A stretch of DNA of 57,146 nt from Flavobacteriaceae bacterium (GTDB lineage Bacteria; Bacteroidota; Bacteroidia; Flavobacteriales; Flavobacteriaceae), in contig WFXA01000237.1 in NCBI GenBank assembly GCA_015490835.1, positions 1 through 57,146 on the forward strand. Direction: 5' to 3'. Numbering within the stretch: the stretch's first letter is position 1; each line of letters opens with the position of its first letter. The translations under genes were made by a program, and so were the position numbers. Under the pieces are notes generated by a model. That model worked only from the letters and a program-made list of their open reading frames with translations, had not been told where the DNA came from and did not search any database. Positions 5,498-47,804 of this stretch are shown in pieces.

Positions 5498-5553
5498 AAA
5501 ACTGCCAACTGCCCACTGCCAACTGCCCACTGCCCACTGAATACTGCCCACTG
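5498..5553 (-). repeat. 7-bp periodic repeat array (CAGTNNN), locus 1
   Basis: Eight consecutive heptads. Read on the minus strand each is CAGTNNN (NNN = GGG, ATT, GGG, GGG, TGG, GGG, TGG, TTT). It lies in the 296-bp gap between the convergent MORN and thioredoxin-like genes. Next to it (5450-5497, minus strand) is an ACTCA-rich tract ending AATCATCAATCGAAAAAATC, similar to sequence beside the locus at 44.2 kb. The rest of this gap shows no gene. Confidence 0.85.
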
Positions 5554-29857: not shown

Positions 29858-29944
29858 AGCGATATTCCTTTGCGTTTTATGTGTTTCAAAGCTACTATAA
29901 TTTTAGGAAAAAAAGATGCCGGATGGTGGGATTTATGTTTGTAT

Positions 29945-30042
29945 CAGTTTTCAGTTGGCAGTTTTCAGTTGGCAGTTTTCAGTTGGCAGTTTTCAGTTGG
30001 CAGTTTTCAGTTGGCAGTATTCAGTAGGCAATATTCAGTTTC
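29945..30042 (+). repeat. 7-bp periodic repeat array (CAGTNNN), locus 2
   Basis: Fourteen consecutive heptads, mostly alternating CAGTTTT and CAGTTGG, the last four degenerating (CAGTATT, CAGTAGG, CAATATT, CAGTTTC). It is followed by an ACTCATCAACTCACC-type tract (30043-30065). The array lies between the start of the copy B gene and the stop of the TolB-like gene, both on the minus strand. Confidence 0.9.
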
Positions 30043-30073
30043 ACTCATCAACTCACCAACTCACCAATAAAAA

Positions 30074-31183
30074 TCACTCTACCCATTCGGTGATAAAAAG
30101 GTTGGTGTCATGTCCGCCTCCATTGTTTCGGTTGGATGAAAAAATTAAATATTTACCATCATTCGAAAAAACGGGAAAAGCATCAAATGTTTCACTATGC
30201 GTAACGCGTTCAAGGTTTTTTCCATCAATATCAATCATATACAAATTAAATGGGAATCCTCTTTCTGCTTCAAAATTTGAAGAAAATAACACACGTTTTC
30301 CGTCGGGTAAGAAAAACGGACTCCAATTGGCATTGCCCAAATGGGTTATTTGTTTTAAGTCGCTACCGTCGGCGTTACAAATAAATAATTCCATGTTGGT
30401 GGGTTCTACCAGTCCTTCGGCAAGTAAATCTTTGTATTTTTTAATTTCTTCTTTTGTTTTGGGACGTGACGATCTAAAAATTAGTTTCGTTCCGTCCGGA
30501 GAGAAAAAGGCACCTCCGTCGTATCCCAGCTCGTTGGTAATTTGTTTTACATCACTTCCGTCTATATTCATGGTATATAATTCCAGGTCTCCGCTTCGGG
30601 TGGAGGTAAAGACAATTTTATCACCTTTTGGCGAAACGGTTGCTTCGGCATCATATCCGGGTTCGTTGGTAAGTTGTGCTGTGATATTTCCTTCCAAATC
30701 AGCTACAAAAATATCGAAACTATCATATACGGGCCATACATACCTGCCTTCTTTTCGAAGCGGAACTTCGGGACAATTTTCATCTACCAAATGAGTAGAG
30801 GCATAAACAAAATGTTTGTTGTCCGGTAAAAAATAGGCGCAAGTGGTACGACCTTTTCCGGTGCTAATCATTGGCGGTTTATTGTCTTTAAAAGTATCGG
30901 TGGCATTCATTAAAAACATTTGGTCGCAATTTACGCCCCAGGCTTTATTATTGGATTGAAAAACCAGTTGTTTATCATCAAAACTCCAGTAGGCTTCAGC
31001 ATTATCACCGCCAAAAGTAACTTGACGCATATTTTTAAAATGTTTTTCCTCGGGAAAAATTAGCGGATTTTTGGTATGGGTTGTAATTTCTTTATCGGTT
31101 GATCCGGCTTCTTTCTTTTGCGAAGTTTCTTCTTTGCAAGAAATTAAATTTATAAATAAAAATAAAAATAGGAAATATCTCAT
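30074..31183 (-). CDS. TolB-like WD40/PD40 beta-propeller lipoprotein
   Basis: A 369-residue lipoprotein from the ATG at 31183 (lipobox NLISC, lipid Cys16). The body is made of PD40-type propeller repeats: SPKGDKIVFTS, SPDGTKLIFRS, LPDGKRVLFSS, SNDGKYLIFSS. Such TolB-like proteins are periplasmic or surface-attached and often bind partners or glycans. The frame is open to 31204, but the chosen start gives a clean signal and a -7 element lies just before. It sits between a glycan cluster and an M28 peptidase divergently transcribed. Confidence 0.9.
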   Translation of the reverse strand: MRYFLFLFLFINLISCKEETSQKKEAGSTDKEITTHTKNPLIFPEEKHFKNMRQVTFGGDNAEAYWSFDDKQLVFQSNNKAWGVNCDQMFLMNATDTFKDNKPPMISTGKGRTTCAYFLPDNKHFVYASTHLVDENCPEVPLRKEGRYVWPVYDSFDIFVADLEGNITAQLTNEPGYDAEATVSPKGDKIVFTSTRSGDLELYTMNIDGSDVKQITNELGYDGGAFFSPDGTKLIFRSSRPKTKEEIKKYKDLLAEGLVEPTNMELFICNADGSDLKQITHLGNANWSPFFLPDGKRVLFSSNFEAERGFPFNLYMIDIDGKNLERVTHSETFDAFPVFSNDGKYLIFSSNRNNGGGHDTNLFITEWVE

Positions 31184-31201
31184 GATTAATGTAATTTTGC
31201 G

Positions 31202-31209
31202 CAAAAATA
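31202..31209 (-). promoter_or_regulatory. -7 element (TATTTTTG) before TolB-like gene
   Basis: A TAnnTTTG match on the minus strand ending 18 bp before ATG 31183. It rules out the longer start at 31204. Confidence 0.5.
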
Positions 31210-41892: not shown

Positions 41893-44097
41893 TTAAACTC
41901 GAGTTACTTTATCTATTCCGTTTATTTTTTTAATGTTTTTCACAAGGTTATCAAGAATGCTTTTGTTTTTTACCTGAACCGTAATTTTTCCTGTAAAAAC
42001 TCCGTCATCACTATCAAAGTGTACACTTTTCATATTAATACCTAAATTATTTGAAATTATTTTGGTTACCTCGTTTACCAGTCCGATGGTATCTATTCCG
42101 GTAATTGTTAAATTGGCTTTAAAGTCTATTTGGCTGGAGTCTATCCATTTTGCTTTTAAAATTCTATAACTGTAATTACTCTGTAATTGTACTGCGTTAG
42201 GACAGTTTTTTTTGTGTACTTTAATACCTTCAGATACTGTTAAAAATCCAAAAACATCATCACCGGGAATTGGATTACAACATTGTGCCATTTTATAGTC
42301 CAGTTTTTCTTCTTCTTTTCCAAAAACCAGCTGGTCATATTTTTGGGTTAGTTCTTCTTTGTTTAGTTCGGGAGGAGGTGATTTTTTTCTAATACGGGAT
42401 TTTAAAAACTTTAAGAAGGCATTGTTTCTGGTAGTGGCAAAGTCTTTTAATTGTTGGTTGTCTATACTTCCGCTTCCTACTCTATAAAATAAATCTAAGC
42501 TTGTTTTTAATTTAAAAAAAATAACCAGCTGATTGATGGTTTTTTCATCTAGTGTAATTTTTAATGATTTTAGTTTTCTGGCTAAGATAACTTTTCCTTC
42601 GTTGGCAATTAGTTTTTGTTCTTCTTTAAGCGATGATTTTATTTTAGATAGTGCTCTTCCTGTAGTGGCATAGTCTAACCAATTTGCATTTGGTTTAGCT
42701 TTTTCTGATGTTATGATTTCAACTTGATCACCACTTTTAAGTATGTGACTTAATGGTACTAATTTTCCGTTAACTCGAGTACCTCTTGTATGTAAGCCTA
42801 CTTCGGTATGTACGTGAAAAGCAAAATCTAATGCTGTGGATCCTTTTGGTAGTGAGTACAAATCTCCTTTAGGAGAAAAGACAAAAATTTCTTTAGCGTA
42901 GAGGTTTAGTTTAAATTGTTTTACAAAATCTACTGCATTAATATCCGGATTTTCAAGAGATTCTTGAAGTTTTGCCAGCCAAGTATCTAAGGAATTATCG
43001 TCTTTTTCTTTGGTTTTATATTTGTAGTGTGCAGCATATCCTTTTTCGGCGATTTCGTTCATTCGTTCGCTACGAATTTGTACTTCTACCCAACGACCTT
43101 TAGGACCCATAACAGTTATGTGTAAGGCTTCATATCCTGTAGATTTTGGAGAAGAAATCCAATCTCGTAATCGGGTTGGGTTAGGGGTAAAGTGGTCGGT
43201 TACGATAGAGTAAATTTTCCACGCGAGAAATTTTTCGTTTTTTTCTGTGCCTTTATAAATAATTCGAATTGCAAATTTATCGTATACTTCTTCAAAAGTA
43301 ACATTTTGCGCAAGCATTTTTCTGCGTATCGAAAATATTGATTTGGGTCTTCCTTTTATGTCGTATTCTATTTTTTCTTCGTCTAATGATTTTTTGATGA
43401 TTTCTGAAAATGAAGCAATGTAGGCATCTTGTTCTTCTTTGCTTTCTTTTATTTTTTTTAGTATGTCATTGTAAACTTCGGGTTCTGTGTATTTTAGCCC
43501 TAAGTCTTCAAGTTCGGTTTTAATATTATAAAGCCCAATACGATGTGCAAGCGGTGCGTAAATATACAGTGTTTCTGAAGCTATTTTTGCTTGTTTATGA
43601 ACCGGCATAGCATCCATCGTTTGCATATTATGCAATCGATCGGCAATTTTTATAATAATTACACGAATGTCTTCGTGTAGCGTAAGAAGTAATTTCCTGA
43701 AATTTTCGGCTTGATGAGACACATCTTTATCTGAAGAGAGGTGCTTAATTTTTGTTAATCCATCTACAATTCGTGCAACGGTTTCACCAAATAATCGCTC
43801 GATATCGGTTACGGTGTACTCCGTGTCTTCAACTACATCGTGTAACAGTGCAGCGGCAATTGAAGTGGCATCTAACCCAATTTCTGAAGCAACAATTTTA
43901 GCTACTGCAATAGGATGAAAAATATATGCTTCTCCCGATTTTCTGCGTTGATCTTTATGTGCATCAACAGCAACATCAAAAGCACTTCGAATTAACTTTT
44001 TATCTTTTGGAGATAGGGTTTGGTAGCTAATACGGAGTAATTCCTTATACTGTTTTGCAATTTCTTTTTTCTCTACTTCAATGGCTTCTTCAGTCAT
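41893..44097 (-). CDS. RelA/SpoT (p)ppGpp synthetase/hydrolase
   Basis: A 734-residue Rel protein with all domains in order: HD hydrolase ([20 protein letters not shown]), synthetase ([38 protein letters not shown]), TGS ([22 protein letters not shown]), a conserved Cys-rich segment ([10 protein letters not shown]) and a C-terminal ACT domain. The intact HD motif means it can probably hydrolyse (p)ppGpp as well as make it. First gene of a run with a Fur-like regulator and purA. Confidence 0.96.
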
Positions 44098-44576
44098 AAT
44101 ATAAAACTACAACATTGTTTTTAAAGAAACAACTAAAATTTATGTGCAATTTATTTTTTTGTAAAATATTTGGTCAATAGTGTTTAGTTGGCAGTCTTCA
44201 GTAGGCAGTCTTCAGTAGGCAGTCTTCAGTAGGCAGTTATCAGTAGGCAGTATGCAGTATTCAGTTGGCAGTGGGCGGTCATCAGTAGGCAGTCATCAGT
44301 AGGCAGTCATCAGTAGGCAGTCATCAGTAGGCAGTCATCAGTAGGCAGTCTTCAGTAGGCAGTTATCAGTAGGCAGTATGCAGTATTCAGTTGGCAGTGG
44401 GCGGTCTTTAGTGATTCGTGAGTAGTCAATCGAATTAATCTTCCCTTTTGGTATTCTCGATACTTTCAACAAGTTGAAAATCTACCTGTTGGCAGACAGG
44501 CTCGAACACCTTTTGATTTCAGGTTAAAGAAATGTTCATCAAATCATCAATCCTCAATCCTCAATCGAATAAATCG
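44098..44576. other. 479-bp gene-free region with repeats
   Basis: Contains the heptad array (44185-44414). After that, the only patterned sequence is AATCATCAATC followed by heptad-spaced CAATCCT, CAATCCT, CAATCGA (about 44542-44569). No ORF is credible. The promoter of the relA/spoT gene must be near the left end; none was picked. Confidence 0.7.
44185..44414 (+). repeat. 7-bp periodic repeat array (CAGTNNN), locus 3, with 126-bp higher-order repeat
   Basis: About 33 heptads, mostly CAGTCTT/CAGTCAT/CAGTTAT alternating with CAGTAGG. A 60-bp block at 44221-44280 recurs identically at 44347-44406, a distance of 126 bp, exactly 18 heptads. It lies between the start of relA/spoT and the end of the M48 protease gene. 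Confidence 0.92.
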
Positions 44577-45812
44577 TTAGTTTTGTTTTAATTTTTTTAT
44601 TCGTTGTAAAAGTGTTGGATGCGAATAATGAACAAATACATACCAAGGATGGGGTGTTAAGTTACTTAAATTGTTTTTACTCAATTTTTTAAGAGCTGAA
44701 ATCATCGGTTCTTCTCCAAAAGTTCTTTTGGCAAAAGCGTCAGCTTGGTATTCAAATTTCCTTGAAAGATAGTTCACAATTAACCCTGTAATTTCTGAAA
44801 TCGGGGTATATAAAATACCAAAAACCAAGAGTCCTATGTGAAAAGAAGGTGTGGAAATATGTAATGCTTTCGATAACAAGGGGTTTCCTATAAAAAGAGA
44901 TAATAACCAAAGTGTAAAACCCGTTAGTAAAGTAGATAGGATAAGGTTAATGATGACATGATTTTTTTTATAATGTCCAACTTCATGAGCCAAAACAGCA
45001 ACCACTTCGTCTTCGGTTAAATCATTAATAAGCGTGTCGTATAACGTTATTCTTTTTTGTTTTCCAAATCCCGAAAAGTAAGCGTTGGCTTTGGTGCTTC
45101 TTTTTGAACCGTTTATAATAAAAATAGTAGAAAGTGCAAACCCTACTTTGTTTGCATATTGTGTGATTTTTTCTTTTAAACTTCCTTCAGCTAATGGTAT
45201 TTGCTTGTTAAAAAGGGGTACAATAAGTTTTGAATAAAAAAAGGTGATAAAAAGAGTGAAAATTGAAATAATTCCCCAAGCATATAACCAAAAATTACTT
45301 CCGGAAAGTTGATAAAACCATAATATAGCTGAAAGAATACTTCCTCCCAGAACCAGAAATAAGAGCCAGCCTTTAAGTTTGTCTAATACAAATGTTTTTA
45401 AGGTCGTTTTATTAAAACCGAATTTTTCTTCGATAACAAAAGTATGATAATACTGAAAAGGCAATGTAAGTAAATCATTTGCCAAAAAAATTAGACCGAA
45501 AAAAAGTAGGGAAATTAAAATTTCGTTGTTTGTAAAACTTCTCACAAAAGTATCTGTTAAAGCAAAACCATCAAGAAAGAAAAAGAAAAGTATTGCAATC
45601 ATAGAGAGTGTTGAGGTAATAAGACCGAATTTAAAATTCGCTTTTTGGTAAGCAATCGATTTGTTATACTCGTCTTGGTTATACACATCTGCAACTTCAT
45701 CGGGAAGTTTTTGTGTTCTGTTTTTAAAGTTAAGATAATCTAAAAACGTGTCGAATAGAAAATTAAAGATGAGAATACCTATTATAAGGTAAAAAAAAGT
45801 TTGGGGATTCAT
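44577..45812 (-). CDS. M48 family metalloprotease (Ste24/CAAX protease-like)
   Basis: A 411-residue integral-membrane M48 protease with about 7 hydrophobic segments. The zinc site is HEVGH in VVAVLAHEVGHYKKNH, with a downstream EFQADAFAKR-like block (KFEYQADAFAKRTFG) giving the third ligand. The layout matches Ste24/CAAX prenyl protease 1; in bacteria the substrates are unknown, since protein prenylation is absent. Coupled to a TrmH-type gene upstream by a 4-bp overlap. Confidence 0.94.
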   Translation of the reverse strand: MNPQTFFYLIIGILIFNFLFDTFLDYLNFKNRTQKLPDEVADVYNQDEYNKSIAYQKANFKFGLITSTLSMIAILFFFFLDGFALTDTFVRSFTNNEILISLLFFGLIFLANDLLTLPFQYYHTFVIEEKFGFNKTTLKTFVLDKLKGWLLFLVLGGSILSAILWFYQLSGSNFWLYAWGIISIFTLFITFFYSKLIVPLFNKQIPLAEGSLKEKITQYANKVGFALSTIFIINGSKRSTKANAYFSGFGKQKRITLYDTLINDLTEDEVVAVLAHEVGHYKKNHVIINLILSTLLTGFTLWLLSLFIGNPLLSKALHISTPSFHIGLLVFGILYTPISEITGLIVNYLSRKFEYQADAFAKRTFGEEPMISALKKLSKNNLSNLTPHPWYVFVHYSHPTLLQRIKKLKQN

Positions 45813-47403: not shown

Positions 47404-47409
47404 AAGAAG

Positions 47410-47804
47410 TGGAGCCGGAGGGATTCGAACCCTCGTCCAAACAAGTAACCACTATGCTTTCTACATACTTAGTCTTCAATTAATTTTAGTCCGTAATCTG
47501 ATTGAAGACGACCTGATTACGGCTTAGCTTTAATTTGAGTTTCGCCCTTATATCAAAGCACTATAAGAACTAGGTTTACTTTTACGAAGCCTCCGGTTCA
47601 ATCGCCGTAAACCAAGGCAATTGAGAGACTTCTTGCTTTCCCGCCTTGCGGGACCAGGCTAATCTTACTATACTTCAGATTATGCAGCAAGAGCGAAGTT
47701 ATTATCGCCGTTTAAAAGTGTGAATTATGAGATTTACGAGCTGTATTTCAGCGCTCGGTATGCTTACATAGTAATTTACATCGCTGTCAAAACCAGTCGG
47801 CCCC
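47410..47804 (-). ncRNA. ssrA: transfer-messenger RNA (tmRNA)
   Basis: The 5' end (minus strand) reads GGGGCCGACTGGTTTTGACA and pairs through GGGGCCG with CGGCTCC at the 3' end to make the tRNA-like acceptor; a T-arm (GAGGG, TTCGAAT, CCCTC) precedes it. The internal tag frame (47680-47709, minus) is GGC-GAT-AAT-AAC-TTC-GCT-CTT-GCT-GCA-TAA, giving the tag GDNNFALAA after the charged Ala. The encoded sequence is 395 nt. The CCA end is not encoded: after discriminator A comes CTT. A terminator follows. It is divergent from the saccharopine-dehydrogenase-like gene. Confidence 0.95.

Follow-up and report, generated by a model that had tools for sequence, protein, structure and literature searches.

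Units of 7 bp are strikingly common among bacterial tandem repeats, and polymerase slippage is the usual explanation offered for this. The STRR heptanucleotide repeats of cyanobacteria have the units CCCCAGT, TTGGTCA and CAACAGT, and the TRAP RNA sites consist of (G/U)AG words at a pitch of 5–6 nt with free spacers. According to MacGregor 2015 (PMC4679880), direct repeats of TAACTGA occur in Beggiatoaceae, cyanobacteria and five Bacteroidetes, among which Gramella and Aequorivita have long sets with an admixture of other heptamers. The repeats were suggested to take part in rearrangement, and they were also proposed to act as a terminator substitute or translational site. Slippage is the published proposal for the abundance of heptads, and long simple sequence repeats with a 7-nt unit were described by Mrazek and co-workers in 2007, both as cited in PMC4679880 and PMC4692102. 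The latter paper reports three heptanucleotides in Calothrix, as well as GGGNATC heptamer repeats in Xanthomonas and Nostoc, which are G-rich, quadruplex-forming and noted to occur in inverted pairs, while heptamer-derived satellites are mentioned in PMC6749651. No paper on CAGTNNN as such was found in the open-access listings examined; among the matches listed, ACTGCCAACTG as text led to topics that were unrelated by title, and 7-bp tandem repeats together with Flavobacteriaceae led to MacGregor 2015 as the only relevant paper. The first-pass annotation of the array described below, which knew of no named element matching it, was right only by half: heptanucleotide repeats form a recognised class, and TAACTGA is the CAGTTAT version of this very heptad.

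The DNA analysed (the window) is a stretch of 57,146 bp, contig WFXA01000237.1 of a Flavobacteriaceae bacterium (GCA_015490835.1) whose draft genome (G000) comprises 2.77 Mb in 276 contigs. A CAGTNNN array occupies positions 44185–44415 on the plus strand, and the earlier estimate of about 33 heptads without phase slips proved exact: 33 heptads stand in one phase, 29 of them with an exact CAGT, and the other four are off by one letter (TAGT at 44185 and 44409, CGGT at 44276 and 44402). The 60-bp block at 44221–44280 that had been seen to recur 126 bp (18 × 7) further on, at 44347–44406, is indeed identical there and belongs to a longer exact repeat, 69 bp at its maximal extent, with copies at 44212–44280 and, 18 heptads downstream, at 44338–44406 (both plus strand). 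Random noise, the alternative named by the annotation, was checked with the pattern CAGTx4: the window gave 37 matches and 100 dinucleotide-preserving shuffles of it gave none, while the draft genome as a whole gave 113 vs. 0 for the backwards pattern. The NNN triplets (27 distinct ones across the 25 arrays counted below) are mostly nGG or nTT in alternation, with 93 alternations vs. 51.0 ± 4.6 in shuffled order over these arrays, so the better unit is one of 14 bp, CAGTnTTCAGTnGG; Tandem Repeats Finder likewise gave the array a period of 14, with 13.7 copies, 87% matches and 2% indels. CAGTTAT is present only at 44234 and 44360 (2/33 heptads), singly and never doubled, and tandem TAACTGA (two or more) is absent from the array. 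As the annotation had judged, the array is neither a CRISPR, having periods of 7 and 14 instead of repeats of about 23–50 bp with unique spacers, and RelA-like and M48-type genes as neighbours, nor a REP/BIME hairpin, as its folding is no better than that of shuffles (z 1.5 and 2.0 as DNA), and for the RNA of its minus strand (ACTG) every one of 200 shuffles folded better (z = 3.0). An Rfam covariance-model search of the window at gathering score gave no match at the array; the sole match was a tmRNA gene at 47407–47804 on the minus strand (RF00023, 158.7 bits).

The spacer that holds the array measures 479 bp and is flanked by two minus-strand genes, which we take to encode a RelA/SpoT-like protein (41893–44097, 734 aa, start facing the array) and an M48-type peptidase (44577–45812, 411 aa, stop facing the array), with 95 bp between the start of relA and the first CAGT. 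Two further arrays were found in the window, one at 29945–30042 (plus strand, 14 heptads, 13 of them CAGT, with alternating TTT/TGG spacers), directly followed by an octad run of ACTCACCA at 30043–30067 (plus strand), and one at 5498–5553 (minus strand, 8 heptads). Arrays of four or more CAGT were counted in the window and 16 other array-bearing stretches of G000 (210 kb), which yielded 25 arrays. These arrays are essentially all intergenic: none lies within the genes of a greedy non-overlapping ORF set, and two lie under raw ORFs dropped from that set, of 81 aa (locus L190) and 292 aa (window 29916–30794, plus strand), the latter spanning the second array and overlapping a 376-aa ORF on the opposite strand (30074–31204). 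The CAGT strand of 8/25 arrays begins 1–12 bp past a same-strand stop codon, and where a start codon faces an array (20 cases) the distance is 7 bp once and 27–442 bp otherwise, so that the 25 arrays do not have the placement of the Beggiatoaceae TAACTGA repeats several nucleotides upstream of start codons. Across the 25 arrays no consistent relation to gene orientation was found, the neighbours standing in every arrangement. A link to replication polarity was rejected, the sign of the relation between CAGT strand and local GC skew being inconsistent. Periodicity in the array-bearing DNA is nearly confined to 7, 14, 21 and 28, with less at 8, 16 and 24 and single runs at 15, 23 and 29, and the runs beside the arrays include AATCNNN heptads, GTGAGTC runs and the octads named above, together with TAGTTTC and CACTCAC words. 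A "CANT" grammar (CAAT, CACT and CATT alongside CAGT), seen in such neighbouring runs, was dropped as a general rule because the cyanobacterial sample has many unrelated words.

Orthologous sites were compared between genomes. RelA was found in 18/19 genomes of the genus (source genome included), and in 15 congeners the distance from the RelA start to the M48 match is 67–242 bp vs. 479 bp in G000, consecutive CAGT heptads being absent within 700 bp at this site. In the sister species (G003, RelA 97% identical) and in G002 the contig ends there. The G003 spacer (L161, 3690–4382) contains seven CAGT heptads, a long TAGTTTC/TGGTTTG/TTGTTTC run and then CACTCAC/CATTCAC up to the contig end, i.e., three kinds of heptads within one spacer, and the G002 spacer (L170) finishes at the contig end in what is presumably sequencing-adapter sequence. 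Around the array at 29945, G000 and G003 align over 17.4 kb at 90% identity, and where the former has 14 heptads with TTT/TGG spacers, the latter has 11 with CTT/TTG, CAGT being the word in both. As the sister species also has different heptads in the relA spacer, the array at 44185–44415 is taken to be young and changing in 7-bp steps. Between a convergent gene pair (products of 373 and 148 aa), the two matches are 9–115 bp apart in eight congeners and, in one more, 896 bp; in G000 and G004, which have heptads there, the distances are 444 and 284 bp, respectively. In six of the nine other congeners a hairpin with a T-run, read by eye, stands where these two genomes have heptads. The arrays are young and local, and are re-homogenised lineage by lineage. 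Their single phase, the 18-heptad duplication, the absence in congeners and the replacement of text in the sister species show that they grow in 7-bp steps, and the expansion in heptad multiples proposed in the first-pass annotation is thereby upheld.

The conservation of the CAGT word relative to its spacer was measured on chains of four or more CAGT with at most two other heptads between them, scoring the inner heptads only. In G000 (25 arrays, 155 inner heptads) the core departs by 0.0113 per site and NNN by 0.390, a ratio of 34.6, and in G003 (18 arrays) the values are 0.0132 and 0.384, a ratio of 29.2; with a 14-mer consensus, which removes the alternation, the ratios are 23.2 and 23.5, respectively. 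Arrays were selected by CAGT, so drifted ones are missed, and the controls carry the same selection bias. Among the matches listed, the ratio is 10.9 in other named Bacteroidota (27 arrays), 13.0 in other phyla (41 arrays), 12.5 on viral contigs (272 arrays) and only 5.1 in cyanobacterial CAGT arrays (37 arrays, NNN variety 0.106), the named-genome values coming from 80 titled loci out of at least 118, assigned to phyla by title. Ten other words in cyanobacterial DNA (25 loci and 18 stretches not chosen for arrays) gave 0.5–3.2 with the same pipeline, eight of these being independent because two pairs are complements. Neutral slippage simulations, which are simple and in which small NNN-diverse subsets can seem protected by chance, gave 1.3–3.1 over seven settings, 6.3 on 10 arrays in one further setting, and 1.7–3.2 over ten settings with the 14-mer consensus. 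When runs were picked by period and the best four positions compared with the other three, 49 cyanobacterial runs reached 2.5 vs. 3.0 in a neutral simulation of equal diversity (2.0–4.9 in neutral simulations overall), and runs of any word picked by period 7 gave 6.6 in the G000 loci (17 runs) and 3.7 in the named-genome loci (246 runs in the 118 loci listed). Slippage anchored on the four-letter word was rejected as the sole cause, simulations with a 3- or 4-nt anchor giving 1.1–2.1. Copying only CAGT-bearing heptads led to 5.5–6.7 (two settings, the others retaining too few arrays), and rejecting 98% of core changes to 8.6–13.4, or 12.9–40.3 by a different measure.

CAGT is not the only word of this kind. 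In 30 loci of ten other Bacteroidota, 13 arrays of TGAC, the word CAGT read backwards, keep their word (core departure 0.006), with departures of 0.212, 0.044 and 0.0 at the three NNN positions, and TGAC arrays were found in 20/148 genomes of the phylum vs. 31 for CAGT (source genome included). In a separate scan of 20 genomes, TGAC was the commoner word in some (G040–G042); the uniqueness of CAGT, considered at one point, is weakened by these counts. GTGACNN arrays in which the two-letter spacers vary were also seen by eye in the Bacteroidota genomes G178 and G089 (L456, L457 and others).

The arrays are spread well beyond the source genome. CAGTx6 was found in 11/38 relatives besides G000 (backwards control in one) and in 30/147 other genomes of the phylum, where the backwards control occurs in 20 (by-eye counts), and the impression that similar strings are common in Flavobacteria thus holds in spirit. 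A CAGTx8 scan of one genome per species over 84,980 species returned at least 118 stretches, and the 80 titled ones among the matches listed comprise 25 from cyanobacteria, about 22 from Bacteroidota and others from about a dozen further groups. Array-bearing Bacteroidota that are culturable include Algoriphagus kandeliae, Flavobacterium stagni and Fulvivirga imtechensis. Stretches not chosen for arrays were also examined, all from genomes that had themselves been chosen for having CAGT arrays: 242 kb of cyanobacterial DNA contained 49 lag-7 runs of many different words and at most 8 runs at any other lag between 4 and 24, multiples of 7 aside, vs. 2 lag-7 runs in 150 kb of G000 and 3 in 320 kb of four other Bacteroidota (1 and 0 after shuffling), so that a general 7-nt bias is not evident in the latter genomes.

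Viral contigs with CAGTx6 are represented by at least 120 stretches, and some of those with a GC content near 60% are dense in arrays, e.g., 32 in 11.5 kb of L071 and 26 in 9.1 kb of L093. Other array-bearing phage contigs of about 60% GC include L046, L048, L056, L085 and L114. PHROG matches on L071 are annotated as "transposase" and "DNA transposition protein", genes that look Mu-like, and on L093 as tail completion/Neck1 protein; on L093 at least two arrays were seen by eye just upstream of a ribosome-binding site. In 30 viral loci, which are non-independent, some being parts of one contig or related phages, neighbouring arrays at most 60 bp apart are arranged as CAGT then ACTG in 81 cases, on the same strand in 51 and as ACTG then CAGT in none, and several of the CAGT/ACTG pairs enclose a AAAGGCAAA-like loop. 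No CAGT-then-ACTG pair was found in 30 stretches of G000 and G003, and the three arrays of the window lie far apart.

Gene order was compared for 15 array-bearing spacers of G003, of which eight have flanks that match none of the G000 loci used. Among the seven that match, two are collinear with G000 (L349 at 5628, and L354), one has a single recognised flank (L356), one is the relA site that stops at the contig end, and three (L345, L350 and L355) each join blocks from different array sites of G000, the partners being L187, L189, L194, L196 and the window. In L345 the array starts within a gene whose G000 counterpart is intact (225 aa), leaving an ORF of 103 aa, and the convergent pair mentioned above is found within 0.9 kb in 11 of the 12 genomes having both genes, G003 alone splitting it across contigs. 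Some gene-order breaks of G003 therefore coincide with arrays, a pattern that chimeric joins or misassembly could mimic, each genome being a single draft; arrays at such places may matter to genome stability, or else serve as a warning for metagenome assembly.

Slippage that is blind to sequence explains the growth of the arrays, but not the protected CAGT word. We tentatively favour, with somewhat less than even confidence, an intergenic heptanucleotide satellite that is grown by slippage and whose CAGT word is kept by sequence-specific recognition at a 7-nt pitch. Replication slippage or unequal exchange would make an array grow, shrink and re-homogenise by whole 7-bp units; the pattern of change suggests recognition of CAGT (or of ACTG on the opposite strand) every 7 nt, and heptads that lose CAGT would be removed or not be amplified. 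The candidate reader could be a nucleic-acid-binding protein aligned along the array or else the machinery responsible for spreading the repeat, acting on DNA or RNA. Both explanations offered by the first-pass annotation are thus partly retained: slippage with segmental duplication accounts for growth in heptad multiples but leaves the protected CAGT unexplained, and a phased binding site, still hypothetical, would fit the protected CAGT better than slippage does. In a bolder form that we regard as unlikely, CAGTNNN would be a phased code on which a putative protein widespread in Bacteroidota docks every 7 nt, ignoring the spacer. Counterparts of this protein would account for the CAGT arrays seen in some phages that have Mu-like transposition genes, and likewise for the GTGACNN arrays found elsewhere; the arrays would then be docking tracks with a selected word and drifting text, and not passive satellites.

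It is possible, though doubtful, that the arrays are instead functionless simple-sequence repeats made by a polymerase that slips with a preferred 7-nt step, with no reading involved and CAGT being a founder effect that copying has carried from one array to another. Slippage is, after all, the published proposal for heptad abundance as cited in PMC4679880 and PMC4692102, heptads of many words dominate the unselected cyanobacterial stretches (the 49 runs in 242 kb), the arrays are intergenic and absent from the relA site of 15 congeners, and other heptad words (AATCNNN, TAGTTTC, CACTCAC) adjoin them. Yet neutral slippage, with or without a 3–4 nt anchor, does not reproduce the contrast of 1% vs. 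39% between core and spacer, and period 7 does not stand out in unselected Bacteroidota DNA. Quite improbable, in our view, is a cis-regulatory RNA site, i.e., a leader or 3′ end element such as a terminator substitute or translational site. The 8/25 CAGT strands that begin shortly after a stop codon, the heptads of G000 and G004 at the place of a hairpin and T-run in six of nine congeners, and the poor folding of the ACTG-strand RNA, which suits a single-stranded binding site, would agree with such a role, but the arrays adjoin genes in every arrangement, and their start-codon gaps, 7 bp in one case and 27–442 bp in the other 19, are unlike the few bases of TAACTGA. Nor has the clade plainly given up intrinsic terminators, since candidates are still found in a rough scan (11 in 210 kb of G000, 5 when shuffled; 10 in 150 kb of G003, 1 when shuffled); an apparent loss, with 0.5–0.7 per 10 kb in these two genomes vs. 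2.75 in outgroup loci, was discounted because identical spacers recur many times among the outgroup loci.

The region downstream of the array raises another alternative, which we consider unlikely: an intergenic element of several parts, dispersed together, namely the CAGT array, GTGAGT/ACTCACC runs, a palindrome and a tail. The palindrome (44450–44510, plus strand, 61 bp, GGTATTCTCGATAC...TCGAATACC) is a closed stem with two hairpins that folds at z −2.7, and it is followed by a short AATCCTC heptad run on the array strand (44542–44566) and by the recurrent tail AATCGAATAAATC (44563–44575, plus strand). Eight palindrome copies of at least 55 bp are present in the searched G000 loci, which were chosen for arrays; it recurs in L185, L188, L189, L195, L436 and L443 (two copies), with a part in L354. 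Dispersal as a unit is suggested by the five copies lying downstream of a CAGT array on the array strand, by a 28–30 bp upstream flank that two pairs of arrays have in common, and by the tail AATC[AG]AATAAATC, which has 15 occurrences in G000 vs. 0 for its reverse; 10/15 adjoin a CAGT array, all on the CAGT strand, of which nine lie downstream of an array or between two, and the tenth 26 bp upstream of the listed array. Against it, the order of the parts varies, 5/15 tails have no array, three palindromes (L436 and both in L443) are on contigs without a CAGTx4 match, tail counts in relatives are mostly near the reversed control, and no ends, target duplication or encoded enzyme were noticed in the array loci.

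For the satellite with a recognised word, which remains our preferred reading, the core/spacer contrast offers a measurable test, slipping words being near 1–3 and the CAGT arrays of this clade at about 30. If the contrast survives a full census, it would separate passive heptad repeats from read arrays with a fixed word and free spacers.

Compared with known systems, the arrays share with the long repeats of the Mrazek type, as these are cited, a tandem heptanucleotide period far above chance, and they lie mainly outside genes, but a simple repeat has one (near-)identical unit text, whereas CAGTNNN keeps a single word and leaves the other three letters free, NNN departing by 39% per site (20% when the consensus is 14 bp). 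The GGGNATC repeats are likewise heptameric and in intergenic excess, with length and sequence that differ at the same genes of close relatives; CAGTNNN differs in having no such G-tracts and in folding poorly. Closest in text are the TAACTGA repeats, which have a 7-bp unit, a CAGT core ((TAACTGA)n being the complement of (CAGTTAT)n) and a mostly intergenic position, close relatives having shorter spacers without obvious repeats, but they sit a few bases upstream of start codons, where the arrays described here are not exclusively found, and here CAGTTAT is rare and the spacer text is free with nGG/nTT alternation. The STRR repeats are also tandem 7-bp units, two of the three containing CAGT, but the cyanobacterial CAGT arrays have less NNN variety (0.106) and a ratio of 5.1 among the matches listed. 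TRAP-type sites serve as a working analogy, with no claim of membership: both have a short fixed word, a free spacer, a fixed pitch, many copies and an unstructured strand, with a pitch of 5–6 nt there vs. 7 here. Heptanucleotide repeats are thus already known, and what is new is a variant in which the heptads of a satellite keep a protected word of four letters while their spacers are free.
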